Made by a program: the position numbers and the translations under genes. Shown one piece after another: positions 13,748 to 23,817 of a stretch of DNA of 36,964 bases (positions are counted from its first letter, which is position 1; every line of letters begins with the position of its first letter). Source of the stretch: a virus. Location of the stretch: positions 1 to 36,964 of IMG/VR virus record IMGVR_UViG_3300025674_000143; one strand, 5' to 3'. Under the pieces are notes generated by a model. That model saw only the letters and a program-made list of their open reading frames with translations. It searched no databases and was not told the origin of the DNA.

Positions 13748-14088
13748 GTTTTTTTGATTCTGAAGTTGTACGTGCCGAAATGGCAGAAATTAGTGAACTT
13801 CAGGAAGAAGTATATAAGAGCGTTTTCCTCTTTTTCGAGATGTCGAAGAAGGAGAAGATGGAGCATGTCGATCTTCTAGAGACACTTCTGAACAAGCAAC
13901 GTATTCTTTATACCCGTTTAAGCTTGTCAGATGACCCAGAAGCGATTACAATGAAAGAGCAGATCATTCAATCTGCACAGATGATGGGTCTGGGTCAAAG
14001 TGTCGATATGAACGTCATCTTCGGAAACATGGCAAAACTGGTCACTTCTATGAGAGATCAGATTGACAATTCCGAGTTGAGCGATTAG
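13744..14088 (+). CDS. DUF1825-like protein, 114 aa
   Basis: A helical protein matching the pattern of DUF1825, a cyanobacterial family: FFDSEVVRAEMAEISELQEEVY at the start, LLETLLNKQRILYTRLSLSDDPEAI in the middle, and a Met-rich end (MNVIFGNMAKLVTSM). Family function is unknown, and the family suggests acquisition from a cyanobacterial host. It sits between gp59 and gp32 and its stop codon forms part of the gp32 promoter. Confidence 0.8.
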   Translation: MSFFDSEVVRAEMAEISELQEEVYKSVFLFFEMSKKEKMEHVDLLETLLNKQRILYTRLSLSDDPEAITMKEQIIQSAQMMGLGQSVDMNVIFGNMAKLVTSMRDQIDNSELSD

Positions 14089-17531: not shown

Positions 17532-17974
17532 TACTTGATTCCGAGTTCGTCTTCTGTGATAATCTTGAACTCAAGTCGATGATCTAAACACCATTCTCTA
17601 GCAGCTTTCCACTTTGCCTCATTCGTGGCATAAGTGTATACTTCGTTAATGTATGATTGAGTTTGCCTCTTTGGTTTTTTGGGTGGTGCAGTCTGCTTTT
17701 TGGGTTTCACTTCGATCAAATACTTTTTGATCTTTCCATTACTCTCCTGAACTTTAATGATAAAGTCTGGATAGTAAGTTCTCACTCTCTTTTTCACGGG
17801 ATCATAATATCTGATTCTGATTTCTTCAGAACCCCATGCTAAAATGTTTTCGTTTAGATCACACCATCTGCAAAAGATTCTTTCCCAACTGCTTCTACAG
17901 ATAATATTGTTAGGATCACCTTGATATTTGTTTGGATACGAAGGTTGATACCTACTCTTTATACTTTCTCCCAT
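17531..17974 (-). CDS. 4: gp4 head completion protein
   Basis: A 147-residue protein matching T4 gp4 (about 150 residues). YQPSYPNKYQGDPNNIICRSSWERIFCRWCD is the conserved start; ENILAWGSEEIRIRYYDP, RTYYPDFIIK and KKYLIEVKPKK form a PD-(D/E)XK-like nuclease core. Gp4 acts with gp50/65 after packaging, before tail joining. The first 16 codons of the longer frame are excluded because MGESIKSRYQ is the family-like start and the late promoter lies upstream of it. Confidence 0.9.
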   Translation of the reverse strand: MGESIKSRYQPSYPNKYQGDPNNIICRSSWERIFCRWCDLNENILAWGSEEIRIRYYDPVKKRVRTYYPDFIIKVQESNGKIKKYLIEVKPKKQTAPPKKPKRQTQSYINEVYTYATNEAKWKAAREWCLDHRLEFKIITEDELGIK

Positions 17975-18003
17975 TACGCATATACATAATATATAAGCAT
18001 CTC

Positions 18004-18011
18004 TATTTATG
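18004..18011 (-). promoter_or_regulatory. T4-type late promoter for the gp4-gp53 operon
   Basis: On the reverse strand this reads CATAAATA, 29 nt before the gp4 ATG at 17974. It fits NATAAATA and lies in the 41-nt divergent gap between gp4 and the forward tail operon. Confidence 0.65.
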
Positions 18012-18015
18012 CCTA

Positions 18016-18750
18016 ATGGCAAAATTTAAGAAATCGCTGAGTGATATCAAGCACCAACTATTACGTCCAGCGTTAACATCACATTATTATTGTGAGTTTC
18101 CTTTACCAGGCACAAGCGATATTCGCCAGTGGATTGGTAAGGGTATGCTTATGAATGACGGTCTTTCTGCAAATCCACTCCCTTCAGAATTGATTAGCGT
18201 CAATTGTGCTGAAGCGAGTCTTCCTGGTGCGTCTTTGTTGACTCATGAGTTGAATGATGATTTCTCAGGAGTTACTGAGAGACACGCATACAGAAGATCT
18301 TATGATGATAGAGCTGACTTCACTTTCTACGTTGACAGAGATTATAAGATTCTACTTCTCTTTAATCAGTGGATTAACTATATCGCTGGAGAAGGGACAG
18401 GTGCAGATAGAGAAGGAAGGGGTGGAAGTCCCACAGATGATAGTGCTGCTGGACTTAGTGAAAATACCAATTCTTCATTCAGGGCAAAATTCCCAGAAGA
18501 TTATGTGACTCAAAAGCTGTGCATCTATAAGTTTGAGAAAGATCAGGATGGACTTCATACTGGCGAATTAAAACTTGACTTAAATGCAACTTCGCATATA
18601 AAATATAACTTTATTAATGCATATCCAATCTCGATTAACTCTATTCCAGTAAGTTACGAGTCATCACAACTTCTGAAGGTTACAGTGTCCTTCAGTTATA
18701 GTAGATATTACATCACCAACGCTAATACAGATGGTGCGTTACCCGGATAA
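18016..18750 (+). CDS. 54: Tail-tube-fold protein, probable gp54 baseplate tube initiator
   Basis: A 244-residue protein with tail-tube features: LRPALTSHYYCEFPLPG, ISVNCAEASLPGASLLTHEL, GVTERHAYRRSYDDRADFTFYVDRDYKILLLF (in order) and YPISINSIPVSYESSQLLKVTVSFSYSRYYI at the end. These resemble gp19/gp54 family tubes. Longer than gp19 (163) and shorter than T4 gp54 (320). Position next to gp48 supports gp54. The ATG at 18016 is used; the upstream 28 codons are antisense to gp4. Confidence 0.7.
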   Translation: MAKFKKSLSDIKHQLLRPALTSHYYCEFPLPGTSDIRQWIGKGMLMNDGLSANPLPSELISVNCAEASLPGASLLTHELNDDFSGVTERHAYRRSYDDRADFTFYVDRDYKILLLFNQWINYIAGEGTGADREGRGGSPTDDSAAGLSENTNSSFRAKFPEDYVTQKLCIYKFEKDQDGLHTGELKLDLNATSHIKYNFINAYPISINSIPVSYESSQLLKVTVSFSYSRYYITNANTDGALPG

Positions 18751-18781: not shown

Positions 18782-19498
18782 ATGCCTTTACCAAAAATTT
18801 CTACTCCTGTTCACGAGTTAGAATTGCCTTCAACTGGTCAAACAATTAAGTACAGACCGTTTCTTGTTCGTGAAGAAAAACTTTTGATTCTTGCTCTTGA
18901 GTCTGAGGATCCGAAACAGATCACAACAGCAATCAAGCAAGTTATCAAGAGTTGTATTCAGACAAAGGGAGTCAAAGTAGAATCTCTTCCTACATTTGAC
19001 ATCGAATATCTTTTCTTGAATATTCGTGGTAAGTCTGTTGGAGAAGAAGTTGAGTTGCAACTTATTTGCCCAGATGATGAAGAAACTACGGTTCCTGTGA
19101 CTATCTTGATTGATGACATTAAAGTTGTCAAGAGAGATGATCATAACAACCAAATCAAAATCAATGATGAATTGATGATGGAGATGAAGTATCCATCTCT
19201 TGATGAGTTTATCAAATCTAATTTTGAAGTTGGAGAAACTAACGTTGACCAGTCTTTTGATCTAGTTGCTTCGTGTATTGACAAAGTATTCAGTGAAGAG
19301 GAAGTCTGGACATCAGCAGATTTTACAAAGAAAGAAATTAAAGAGTTCTTGGATCAAATGAATTCGTCACAATTCAAAGAAATCGAAAGTTTCTTCGAGA
19401 CGATGCCTAAGCTGACACATACAGTCAACATCACTAACCCCAAGACAAAAGTGAAGAGTAAGGTTACTCTGGAGGGTCTCTCAAATTTTTTCGGATAG
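18782..19498 (+). CDS. 26: gp26-like baseplate hub assembly chaperone
   Basis: A 238-residue protein of the T4 gp26 type. Characteristic are QTIKYRPFLVREEKLLILALES near residues 18-39, QITTAIKQVIKSC, and FDIEYLFLNIRGKSVGEEVEL near residues 72-92. It ends KVTLEGLSNFFG. Gp26 is a nonstructural factor for hub assembly. The slippery site in its last codons, with a downstream -1 ORF, makes this look like the G part of a G/GT tail chaperone pair. The late promoter GATAAATA precedes it. Confidence 0.83.
   Translation: MPLPKISTPVHELELPSTGQTIKYRPFLVREEKLLILALESEDPKQITTAIKQVIKSCIQTKGVKVESLPTFDIEYLFLNIRGKSVGEEVELQLICPDDEETTVPVTILIDDIKVVKRDDHNNQIKINDELMMEMKYPSLDEFIKSNFEVGETNVDQSFDLVASCIDKVFSEEEVWTSADFTKKEIKEFLDQMNSSQFKEIESFFETMPKLTHTVNITNPKTKVKSKVTLEGLSNFFG
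19483..19492 (+). promoter_or_regulatory. Putative -1 programmed ribosomal frameshift site
   Basis: In the gp26 frame the bases read tcA-AAT-TTT-TTC-GGA-TAG. Two heptamers of the X-XXY-YYZ form are in phase: A-AAT-TTT (19483-19489) and T-TTT-TTC (19486-19492). The zero-frame stop comes one codon later, while the -1 frame is open into the 19510 ORF. Confidence 0.7.
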
Positions 19499-19509
19499 GA
19501 CTCATCCAC

Positions 19510-19674
19510 ATGAATCTGGAGTCGTACTATCGACTCAATTTTTCCTTGATTCAGTACCATAAATACTCACTAACTGAGATTGAAAACTTGATGCCTTGGG
19601 AACGAGACATCTACGTCGCTTTATTACAACAACATCTTGAAGAAGAACAGTTAAAGCAACAACAAAATGGTTAA
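19510..19674 (+). CDS. Frameshift partner of gp26 / gp51-like small ORF, 54 aa
   Basis: It begins MNLESYYRLNFSLIQYHKYS, then LTEIENLMPWERDIYVALLQQHLEEEQLKQQQ. The pattern of a helical segment with an EIEN-x-x-PWE turn resembles C-terminal extensions of tail assembly chaperones. It is in the -1 frame of gp26, open from the slippery site; fusion would give a 297-residue protein. Independent start at ATG 19510 is possible, but no ribosome binding site is seen. It overlaps the tape-measure start by 8 nt. Confidence 0.75.
   Translation: MNLESYYRLNFSLIQYHKYSLTEIENLMPWERDIYVALLQQHLEEEQLKQQQNG
19558..19565 (+). promoter_or_regulatory. Possible late promoter motif inside the -1 ORF
   Basis: CATAAATA lies 102 nt before the tape-measure-like gene. 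It could add transcription of that gene, but a chance match is possible because it is inside coding sequence. Confidence 0.35.
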
Positions 19675-21547
19675 GACAGTCCAAGAATCTATTGACGAAA
19701 GAATCCTAAGAGTTCTTGGTCTGGAAGAAGTTTTCGATCTCGATTATGAGACATACAAGCAACTTCTTCTGGAGAAGATGGTTGCTGCCAGAATGTCTGG
19801 ATCAGAACTTGCTGCAGAAGAGGATGAGTTACTAAGGGACGAATATAAGAGAGTTAGAAATAAGGAAGAAGTTAGATTTAAGATTAAGAAGAAGAAAGTA
19901 AAAGTTGAGAATGTAACTAATCTGAAAAAACCTATTGCATTGCTTCCTGGCAAAGGTGGTGCGATTGTGCCTATGCAAAGTTCTTTAGCAACTATTGTTG
20001 AAGCAGTTGATGGTATCACTAAAGGTATTGAAGATCAGAATAAGTTAGAAAAGAAAGATGACGAAAGGGATAGAAAGAAAAAGGAAGATGATAGGAGAGA
20101 GAAGAGAGAAAATAAACTAGAGACAAATACAAAGAAACTCATTCAAAAAACAAGACAACTCTTTACTCCAACAAAGGGTATCTTGGATAAGATTTTTAAT
20201 TTCTTATTCTATACATTTCTTGCATCTGGAATCAATAAAGCATTCAAGTGGTTTGGAGACCCAGAAAATGCTGGAAAGGTTGATGCAATTAAAAAGTTCT
20301 TGTCAGACTTCTGGCCTGCTCTTTCTGGTGCTGCATTAATACTACTAACGCCTATAGGTGGATTGATTAAGGCGTTGGCAAGCACGTTGTTCTCTCTTGG
20401 TGGAGCACTTCTTTCTAACCCCATCATTGCTGCCGCAGCGGGTATTGGTATAGCATCAGCGATGTTGGTGGGTAGGAGTAAGACTGCTACAGAACAGCAA
20501 CTTAAAGAAAAAGGTTTAGAAGAAGCAGCACCAACAGAACAAGCAAAAGAACTATCTAAACCTGGGTCTATTCTGGAAACTCTTACCAGAATGATCTTGC
20601 CGTCGCTGAACACTCCAGCAAAGTCTGGTGGTGGAATGGTCAGTCCTGACACTGGTAGAAGAATTAGAGGTGCTGGACCAGATACGCAACTCACCGCGCT
20701 GATGCCTGGTGAAGTTGTTATGAATAAGGCTGCAGTATCTGCGATCGGTGCAAATAATCTGTTGGCAGCGAACAAGAAATTTGGTGGCGCAAATGCCAAC
20801 ATGGATAAGTTCGATGGTGGAATCCAATTTGCCCAAGGTGGTGGCATGGTTGGTGGATTTATGAATTGGTTCAACAAAGGTGCAAACACTCGTATTCCTG
20901 TAGAATCGAAAGCAAAGTTTGGTAATCCATTCTCGTATTTCCAGAAGAATCCAGATCCTACAACACTCTTTGGTGATGATGCTATCCAAAGAGGTCAGAG
21001 TAATAAAAACTTCAAAGCAGGTAAGAAACCTTCTGTATTTGGAAGACCAGATAGAGCAGTATTTGGAAGAGATCTTCTTGATTGGCATTCAAAACCTTCT
21101 CCTAGGAATCCAATGGGTGTACCTAGACCAAGGTATGTTCCTGCGAGCTTAGGTGGACCAGGGTCTGCACCAACACCAGTTACAAGAGAATTAATCAAGA
21201 GACCTATTCGTACAGCAAAGAGTTTTGGTCAGGCTAGTTTTGGAAATCCGCTTCTAATGTTAGCGGAAATGATCATCAATGATCTGATCAGCCCACAACC
21301 AACAGCAGTATATGATCAGGTCACTGGACCTAATGCATATTATAATGATCCAATGTATAAAGGTCCAATGCCAACTCCATTGGAGCGAGGATCTAGAACT
21401 GAAATTATCAGATTACCTTCTGTTGATGCATCAGCAGGATCTGTTCAACCAACTCAATCTCCATCAACATCTGTTCCTAGTTTTTCTGCTGTTGCTCCTG
21501 GCAATAGAAGAAGTGAGACTTCTCAAATTTACGGACTGGTTAACTAA
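19667..21547 (+). CDS. Probable tail tape-measure protein (gp29-like)
   Basis: A 626-residue protein. Residues 1-65 are helical and 120-165 form a very charged coiled-coil. Hydrophobic helices lie at 172-190 (ILDKIFNFLFYTFLASGI) and 215-268. Near residues 322-366, GGGMVSPDTGRRIRGAGPD, then LTALMPGEVVMNKAAV, is the glycine-rich PGE motif common to tape-measure proteins. The gene directly follows the gp26 and frameshift ORF, the normal place for a tape measure. T4 gp29 is 590 residues, a similar size. Confidence 0.75.
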   Translation: MVKTVQESIDERILRVLGLEEVFDLDYETYKQLLLEKMVAARMSGSELAAEEDELLRDEYKRVRNKEEVRFKIKKKKVKVENVTNLKKPIALLPGKGGAIVPMQSSLATIVEAVDGITKGIEDQNKLEKKDDERDRKKKEDDRREKRENKLETNTKKLIQKTRQLFTPTKGILDKIFNFLFYTFLASGINKAFKWFGDPENAGKVDAIKKFLSDFWPALSGAALILLTPIGGLIKALASTLFSLGGALLSNPIIAAAAGIGIASAMLVGRSKTATEQQLKEKGLEEAAPTEQAKELSKPGSILETLTRMILPSLNTPAKSGGGMVSPDTGRRIRGAGPDTQLTALMPGEVVMNKAAVSAIGANNLLAANKKFGGANANMDKFDGGIQFAQGGGMVGGFMNWFNKGANTRIPVESKAKFGNPFSYFQKNPDPTTLFGDDAIQRGQSNKNFKAGKKPSVFGRPDRAVFGRDLLDWHSKPSPRNPMGVPRPRYVPASLGGPGSAPTPVTRELIKRPIRTAKSFGQASFGNPLLMLAEMIINDLISPQPTAVYDQVTGPNAYYNDPMYKGPMPTPLERGSRTEIIRLPSVDASAGSVQPTQSPSTSVPSFSAVAPGNRRSETSQIYGLVN

Positions 21548-23817
21548 TGGCAATTTCAGCAGCAAAGTTACTTCCAGCAGCAGGTCAAACTGGAAAGGGT
21601 GGTGCGCTTGTAGTCGCATCCAAGAAAGTTGTTGATGCAAAAAAAGTATTTGCAGATAGAATCAAAGAGAAGAAGAAAGAAATCGTTGTAAAGAGAAAGG
21701 ATGAGGAGAATAAAGACAGAAAATTAAGAGAAGACAAATTAGAAAAGAAAAAGGAAGCTAAGAAGGTAGATAAGAAAAATCTACTACCATCTACAGGTCT
21801 GTTTGATACTGTAAAAACTTTCATCGGATATACTTTCCTTGGATACATGTTTGGAAAGCATAGCGAAAGTTTGAAGGAGATGGACAAACTTCTTCCCGTC
21901 CTTAAAGATGGTATCAATGTTGCATCAGATGTTCTGATTTCGACTATTGATTTTACTGCGTCCTTTATTAAAGGTGCATATGATCTAAATGATCAGATTT
22001 CTCAGGGACTTGAAAGTAGTCTTGGACCCGAATTTAGAAAGGGTTATGATAAGTTCATGGAGGGTGTGAAAGATTTCACCAACTCCGCATTGACTCTTGG
22101 TGTCTTCAGTGCTGATGCTTATAAAGAGGAACCAGTCCCTACAAAAAGTAGTGGTGGACTTGTTGGTGACAAGAGATATAAAGGTAAAGTAACAAGACGC
22201 ATTCGTGTCAATAGAGATAAACCAGTTATTATTACTCAACCACGCAAATCTGAACCCGGTCTTGATGTTGGTGGAAAACCAACTATTGAAAAACTTTTTT
22301 CAAATCCTGAGGATCTTAAGAAAAGAAATCCTCTAAGATCTTTGATGAATAGTGCTAAAGTACTGAAAAAAATTGGTGGTCTTGGACCCATTATGGGTGC
22401 CGGTGTTGATATCGCGATGGGTCAAAAACCGTCAGCAAGGTTATATGATAACTTTGCAAATCAAATTATCTCCCTTGTCCGTTCTAATGAAGGAATGGAT
22501 ATTGAGACGGTGATGAAAGCATATGCACAATCACTAAAATTCAAAACTCAGTCTAGAGTTGATGCTATTTTCAGTGAAATCAATGCTGAAATTGCAAAGG
22601 GTGTAGCAAGAACTCAATCGTATTCTCCTTCAATTCAACCTACGCAAGGAACCCAGACCAGAGTTGTTTCACAAATGCAAATTTTGAAAGCATCATATGG
22701 AAAATCTGGTGGACTTGGTGTGGTTGCAAATTTGATCAGACTTAGTGATCTTGATCCAGGATTTGAAGATCCAGCTAGAAGGAGATATGGTATCGCTGGT
22801 TGGCCTGAAGAAACATGGGAAAAGATTCAAGAATTTATTATTCGTAAAGGTAAAGATCCTATGAGTCTTGATGCTCAGATGGAGATGCTCATTGATACTA
22901 CCCCTTTGAAAGTTAGACAACAGTTATTAACATCTAAAGATTCTGAAGAAGCAGCAGAAATCTTTTATAATGGATATAAGATGGGAGACTACTTATATCA
23001 AAAAGACAAAATTGGAGACTTCAATCCCGATAATCCTCATATGCAAAGGATTCGGAGAATTATCTCTGGTCTTGGAGGACAATCATTTGTATACAAACCA
23101 CCAACACCTATTGAAGGTTTAAGAGTCACTGGTGTTTTTGGAGAAAAACGTGGACTGTTCAGAACTCATAAAGGTGTTGATATTGCAGCACCTTTAGGAT
23201 CTGAAGTAAGAGCACTGACAGATGGTGAGGTTATTGATTCTGGATTTGATAAAGATGGATGGGGTAATTTCTTAGTCTTTAAGGATGATAAAGGTAACGT
23301 TCACCTATATGCTCACTTGAGAGATACTGCTCGCATCACATCTGTCAGAAAAGGTGATGTTATTGGTATTGTTGGTATGACAGGTAGAACTAGTGGACCT
23401 CATCTACACTGGGAGACTGGTAAGGCTTGGGATGGATACAAACTTTTGGGTCATGTAGACCCTCTTTCCAAGTATGCTATAGATGCTCCATTTGGAACTG
23501 GTAGAAGTGAGTTTGATACAGTTAAACCAGAGGATTATCTGAAACTACCGCCACAGGCGACCGCACCAGTCACACCACCACCTGGGTTAACTATTCCCAC
23601 AGCACCTTATCAGACTCCTCTTCAAACAAAACCTTTGAAAGCGTCTGCACAGATACCAGATCTTGCACAATATCCATCATATGCTGATGGAAAATCAACT
23701 ATCTTTTTGTTAGATAGATATATTAGGGAACCTGCATCTGGTGAAGACAATATCAACTTCCCACAGTCAATAGATCTGGCATACTCCACACCTCCACTGA
23801 GAAGTAAAATCGGATGA
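21547..23817 (+). CDS. Tail protein with lysozyme-like and M23 peptidase domains
   Basis: A 756-residue protein. The N-terminal 80 residues are charged coiled-coil, followed by STGLFDTVKTFIGYTFLGYMF, like a segment of the previous protein. At about 381-480 a region (GVVANLIRLSDLDPGFED, YGIAGWPEETWEKIQEF) resembles phage tail lysozymes, with the usual catalytic Glu seemingly replaced. At about 528-650 an M23 (LytM-type) endopeptidase has THKGVD (H541, D545), HLYAHL and HLHWE (619-623) as zinc ligands. It probably digests peptidoglycan during DNA injection. It starts at the previous stop (TAATG). Confidence 0.85.
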   Translation: MAISAAKLLPAAGQTGKGGALVVASKKVVDAKKVFADRIKEKKKEIVVKRKDEENKDRKLREDKLEKKKEAKKVDKKNLLPSTGLFDTVKTFIGYTFLGYMFGKHSESLKEMDKLLPVLKDGINVASDVLISTIDFTASFIKGAYDLNDQISQGLESSLGPEFRKGYDKFMEGVKDFTNSALTLGVFSADAYKEEPVPTKSSGGLVGDKRYKGKVTRRIRVNRDKPVIITQPRKSEPGLDVGGKPTIEKLFSNPEDLKKRNPLRSLMNSAKVLKKIGGLGPIMGAGVDIAMGQKPSARLYDNFANQIISLVRSNEGMDIETVMKAYAQSLKFKTQSRVDAIFSEINAEIAKGVARTQSYSPSIQPTQGTQTRVVSQMQILKASYGKSGGLGVVANLIRLSDLDPGFEDPARRRYGIAGWPEETWEKIQEFIIRKGKDPMSLDAQMEMLIDTTPLKVRQQLLTSKDSEEAAEIFYNGYKMGDYLYQKDKIGDFNPDNPHMQRIRRIISGLGGQSFVYKPPTPIEGLRVTGVFGEKRGLFRTHKGVDIAAPLGSEVRALTDGEVIDSGFDKDGWGNFLVFKDDKGNVHLYAHLRDTARITSVRKGDVIGIVGMTGRTSGPHLHWETGKAWDGYKLLGHVDPLSKYAIDAPFGTGRSEFDTVKPEDYLKLPPQATAPVTPPPGLTIPTAPYQTPLQTKPLKASAQIPDLAQYPSYADGKSTIFLLDRYIREPASGEDNINFPQSIDLAYSTPPLRSKIG

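Follow-up and report, generated by a model that had tools for sequence, protein, structure and literature searches.

Background

In phage lambda, the long tail assembly chaperone GT is produced from the G gene by a -1 frameshift on the heptamer GGGAAAG. In the Escherichia coli dnaX gene, a -1 frameshift occurs at A_AAA_AAG, with an SD-like element about 10 nt upstream and a strong hairpin downstream. For T4-like phages, Vladimirov, Gautam and Davidson (Virology 2022, doi 10.1016/j.virol.2021.11.003) reportedly identified gp26 and gp51 as tail assembly chaperones. Two other papers credit Vladimirov et al. 2022 with poly-T slippery sequences in T4-like TAC-N genes (PMC12846349) and with T4-like phages in which one short and one long gene replace the frameshift (PMC10885494). 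A literature search for gp26/gp51 frameshifting by name returned nothing directly relevant. The original prediction for the locus described here was that it may be a new example of such a design. Given the poly-T sites credited to Vladimirov et al. in these papers, that suggestion of novelty falls away, and the T4-like cyanophage chaperone frameshift is a well-supported, unannotated case of a principle already known.

The locus and its reading frames

The window analysed is a stretch of 36,964 nt comprising positions 1 to 36,964 of IMG/VR record IMGVR_UViG_3300025674_000143. Based on sequence comparison, this is very probably the tail assembly chaperone locus of a T4-like cyanophage, which would yield a short and a long form through -1 slippage on T_TTT_TTC (Table 1). 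The gp26-like ORF ends with tcA-AAT-TTT-TTC-GGA-TAG, and its zero-frame codons are TCA at 19481, AAT at 19484, TTT at 19487, TTC at 19490, GGA at 19493 and TAG at 19496. These codons and their phase had been given in the original prediction and were found again on re-reading the sequence. It had also been claimed that the -1 frame runs without a stop through the ATG at 19510 into a 54-aa ORF, and this frame is indeed open from 19462 to 19674, flanked by a TAA at 19459-19461 and a stop codon at 19672-19674. These two stops leave a possible shift window of 34 nt. The -1 codon phase of the extension carries on from 19492, and the predicted fused product of 237 + 60 = 297 aa agrees with the size of ~297 residues first proposed. 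As was also proposed, the -1 ORF ends inside the following ORF, with which it shares 8 nt (ATG 19667).

Profile matches for both the short form and the C-terminal module indicate membership of the gp26/gp51 family (PF12322, phrog_150 and phrog_634). The -1 product matches phrog_634, annotated as 'baseplate hub assembly catalyst', and the C-terminal end of phrog_150, a profile that holds both modules within one chain.

Under decoding rules, the zero-frame codons TTT and TTC and the two TTT codons of the -1 frame could all be read by one tRNA-Phe. The majority of ribosomes would end at the TAG at 19496 and release the 238-aa short form. A fraction would slip back one base on T_TTT_TTC and read on as far as 19674, and the resulting long form of 297 aa would carry the gp51-type C-terminal module. 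We infer that such slippage takes place in cells, at a short:long ratio that favours the short form, and that the two forms act as chaperones. By analogy with lambda G/GT, they would coat the tape-measure protein and hold it during assembly of the tail tube.

Table 1. Features of the chaperone locus, in window coordinates
Feature	Position	Strand	Basis or remark
gp26-like ORF, 238 aa, predicted short tail assembly chaperone (TAC-N)	18782..19498	+	PF12322 E 8.5e-75, phrog_150 E 2.2e-78
SD-like GGAGGG, candidate stimulator	19471..19476	+	GGAGG ends 10 nt before heptamer
A_AAT_TTT, other heptamer originally named, probably incidental	19483..19489	+	not conserved
T_TTT_TTC slippery heptamer, probable -1 shift site	19486..19492	+	conservation; 7-nt shift window in five lineages
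-1 frame extension, 60 residues and stop after Phe237, gp51-type C-terminal module	19493..19674	+	phrog_634 E 2.9e-28, phrog_150 C-terminus
Zero-frame stop TAG, one sense codon past heptamer	19496..19498	+	read from sequence
Internal ATG of annotated-style 54-aa ORF, possible additional start	19510..19512	+	AGGA 9 nt upstream
GAGTCG-tactat-CGACTC hairpin, perfect 6-bp stem, particular to the window	19519..19536	+	RNA fold
626-aa ORF in tape-measure position, first client candidate	19667..21547	+	weak tape-measure matches phrog_58 E 3e-4, phrog_1283 E 0.01

Conservation of the slippery heptamer

Relatives were gathered from phage records and through similarity searches with the window protein and with more distant gp26 proteins, giving 260 loci with a readable stop. 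The in-phase site is T_TTT_TTC in 242 of these, T_TTT_TTT in 16 and T_TTT_TTG in one, and is absent in one. The zero-frame stop lies one sense codon past the heptamer in 216/259 relatives and follows it immediately in 32. Removal of loci with more than 85% nucleotide identity left 148. In this non-redundant set, which is conditioned on the presence of the heptamer (one locus left out) and consists of related sequences whose counts are not independent trials, the first Phe codon of the site is TTT in 148/148 and the second is TTC in 140/148; pooled TTT use is 64%. The codon before Phe-Phe always ends in T, though it may encode Ser, Asp, Asn, Ala, Gly, His or Thr. Codon use is variable at the protein's other conserved Phe-Phe, positions 204-205 (TTC 111/142, TTT 118/136). 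On these codon counts, synonymous choice is frozen at the slippery site. In-phase T6Y heptamers number only 3 in the 6969 codons of the window's larger ORFs, as against 258/260 relatives at the slippery-site position, and the heptamer is conserved there more than by chance.

The original prediction had named two heptamers at the end of gp26. T_TTT_TTC is borne out by its conservation, and the -1 frame is open across the junction alignment, with the heptamer present in 259/260 loci. A_AAT_TTT occurs in a small minority of relatives and was rejected as a functional heptamer.

Two further in-phase T6Y heptamers occur in other ORFs of the window, at 13749 and 24401. The sole relative without an in-phase T6N heptamer, and the one departure from the pattern of the junction alignment, is Vibrio phage K476 (L089, about 2200-2225), which reads AAT-ACG-CTT-TTT-GCG-TAA. 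Even without the heptamer, it keeps an open -1 frame of 61 codons; single-tRNA slippage or coupled initiation may operate in this phage.

Position of the shift and origin of the -1 product

In 148/148 non-redundant loci, the heptamer falls within the stretch bounded by the last -1 stop upstream and the stop of the zero frame. In five lineages this shift window is 7 nt, exactly the heptamer (e.g. GC-TGA-TTTTTTC-TAA), so the heptamer alone can serve there, and A_AAT_TTT is removed as a general site. The entropy just past the stop is 1.08, 0.68 and 1.44 at -1 codon positions 1, 2 and 3; the corresponding zero-frame values upstream are 0.96, 0.69 and 1.55. Immediately past the stop, variation is already patterned by -1 codons, as it is by zero-frame codons upstream.

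An ATG ahead of the -1 domain core is kept in 96/143 testable lineages, and in the window the ATG at 19510 is preceded by an AGGA (Table 1). Phages with this ATG might make a free C-terminal module as well as the frameshift fusion. Such a double output is rather unlikely. No ATG precedes the core in the remaining 47/143 lineages, the codon may be kept elsewhere merely because Met is tolerated, and a free module has no known role.

The same AGGA, 9 nt before the ATG, would also suit gp26 and the 54-aa gp51 as ordinary adjacent genes without a fusion, with gp51 beginning at 19510, perhaps through translational coupling after the TAG. Public cyanophage records (P-SSM2, Syn9 and S-N03) annotate two separate genes in this way. 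This arrangement is nevertheless very improbable, since 36/143 lineages have no ATG, GTG or TTG ahead of the -1 domain core, and an independent gene therefore cannot explain the -1 ORF. It would also leave unexplained both the frozen heptamer and the conservation of the -1 frame between the stop and the ATG, and T4 gp51 carries the module joined to a gp26-like domain. The frameshift reading corrects a habit of cyanophage annotation, by which gp51 is entered as a small gene of its own; the conserved product would be the fusion.

In Synechococcus phage Syn9 (L084, 2271-2414), the annotated gp51-like gene begins within the conserved module because there is no upstream ATG, and it is probably a truncated annotation. 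In another relative (L073), about 22 residues (LALTEIENMM...) are missing from the -1 extension, which may reflect a faulty assembly or a true internal deletion.

Since six Ts stand in a row at the site, RNA polymerase could slip in place of the ribosome and give mRNAs with altered T counts. This is extremely unlikely: a six-T run is short for polymerase slippage, the run is no longer in relatives, and ribosomes agree better with the strict codon phase and with the SD-like motif upstream. That the heptamer is a chance result of a Phe-Phe conserved as protein, which T4 gp26 keeps without slippery codons, and that the open frame is accidental has negligible probability, because the codons are frozen at this site but not at Phe-Phe 204-205 and the -1 module is recognisable family-wide.

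Candidate stimulatory elements

A purine-rich SD-like motif is found upstream of the heptamer in 138/148 non-redundant relatives, mostly at near-constant spacing. The Glu231 codon, which contributes to this motif, is enriched for GAG (83/129, compared with 31% pooled). The RNA just 3' of the site folds somewhat better than shuffled sequences, with a mean z of -1.3 to -1.7, compared with about -0.65 for control stretches. RNAalifold detected no conserved downstream stem-loop over 67 close relatives. Both the SD-like motif and the downstream folding may stimulate the shift. The nearest group of relatives has a small hairpin, GGTCC-ATAT-GGACC, which is 80% paired versus 75% in shuffles (0/2000 reach 80%). 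This hairpin is incompletely formed in the window and is thus at most a lineage detail.

Predicted structure and gene neighbourhood

An AlphaFold2 model of the 238-aa protein, built with 55 sequences, has a mean pLDDT of 87.5. Its two best PDB matches are both to the HK97 tail assembly chaperone 2ob9, with 3fgx in eighth place, at E about 2; the match probabilities for 2ob9 and 3fgx, 0.38-0.63, are the highest among the matches listed. The structure 3fgx has been grouped with tail assembly chaperones (PMC9603447). With E values of about 2, the likeness of the modelled gp26-like protein to the TAC fold is suggestive only. Comparison of the model with predicted viral structures gave many 'baseplate hub' relatives. 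A profile search of solved structures returned a weak match to MtrB and no TAC.

The tail tube gene (phrog_45, 17932-18750) sits upstream of the chaperone locus and two large tail ORFs lie downstream. The chaperone gene adjoins tape-measure-like ORFs, namely the weakly matched 626-aa ORF and the next ORF, which has tape-measure peptidase regions. This second ORF (756 aa, 21547-23817) directly follows the first, and its type of peptidase domain also occurs in tape-measure proteins. Either of the two could be the true tape measure. Nearby genes include those for single-strand binding, helicase loader, baseplate wedge, tube cap and head closure, a set that appears consistent with a T4-like phage. 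The best named relatives in similarity searches are phages of Prochlorococcus and Synechococcus.

Comparison with known systems

The SD-like element about 10 nt 5' of the slippery heptamer is shared with dnaX. However, dnaX has a strong downstream hairpin, whereas no conserved hairpin was found in the comparison of close relatives here. The slippery site offers a good system for studying -1 frameshifting in cyanobacteria.

The locus is arranged, and would work, like lambda G/GT, with a short product and a -1 frameshifted long product encoded just before the tape-measure region. The G/GT-like design of the original prediction finds strong support in the conservation of the site, the minimal shift window of 7 nt, the lack of start codons in many relatives and the two-gene alternative in T4. 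The heptamer here is T_TTT_TTC, different from that of lambda, and the likeness described is one of arrangement and predicted frameshift. The TAC locus of Vandenendeviridae/Andersonviridae, among them phage Adele, has an invariant poly-T sequence, GTTTTT, near the end of TAC-N and an open -1 frame, and its site was deduced through a comparison similar to ours (PMC12846349). These phages belong to another family, and their GTTTTT differs from the in-phase TTTTTTC of the present site.

The closest counterparts are the T4-like gp26/gp51 chaperones, which belong to the same protein family (PF12322, phrog_150, phrog_634). T4 gene 26 encodes 208 aa on the minus strand and gene 51 encodes 249 aa on the plus strand. 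Both products match PF12322 and phrog_150 in profile searches, and the C-terminal module is present in gp51 only, where it is fused to the gp26-like domain in one chain. In T4 and its near relatives, gp26 ends in GLKEFFELL and the Phe-Phe is spelt TTC-TTT, which is not slippery. More distant T4-type gp26 proteins have FI or LF at this position, and the C-terminal module is again found in gene 51. One sequence (L270) has TTT-TTT at the Phe-Phe, but without an in-phase heptamer. At the locus studied here, the T4-type layout of separate short and long genes is replaced by one PF12322 gene with a -1 extension, a finding that covers this locus in a window that is part of a genome, where a second copy could lie elsewhere.

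In a phylogenetic tree, T4 gp26 and gp51 fall on the same side of a branch (89/74; unrooted, with long branches), which is consistent with, although not proof of, duplication of the chaperone gene within the T4 group. It is an evenly balanced possibility that, the T4-type group apart, T_TTT_TTC with a dnaX-like upstream SD stimulator is the ancestral TAC signal of almost every T4-like phage (cyanophages and those infecting Vibrio, Aeromonas, Rhizobium, Stenotrophomonas and Pseudomonas), and that duplication of the gene and loss of the slippery codons came later, in the T4-type group. T4 has two homologous genes, a short gp26 and a long gp51, and no frameshift, whereas the present phage has one gene with a -1 extension. 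This gives a clean evolutionary contrast, in which the same chaperone pair would be made through frameshifting in one branch and through two genes in T4.
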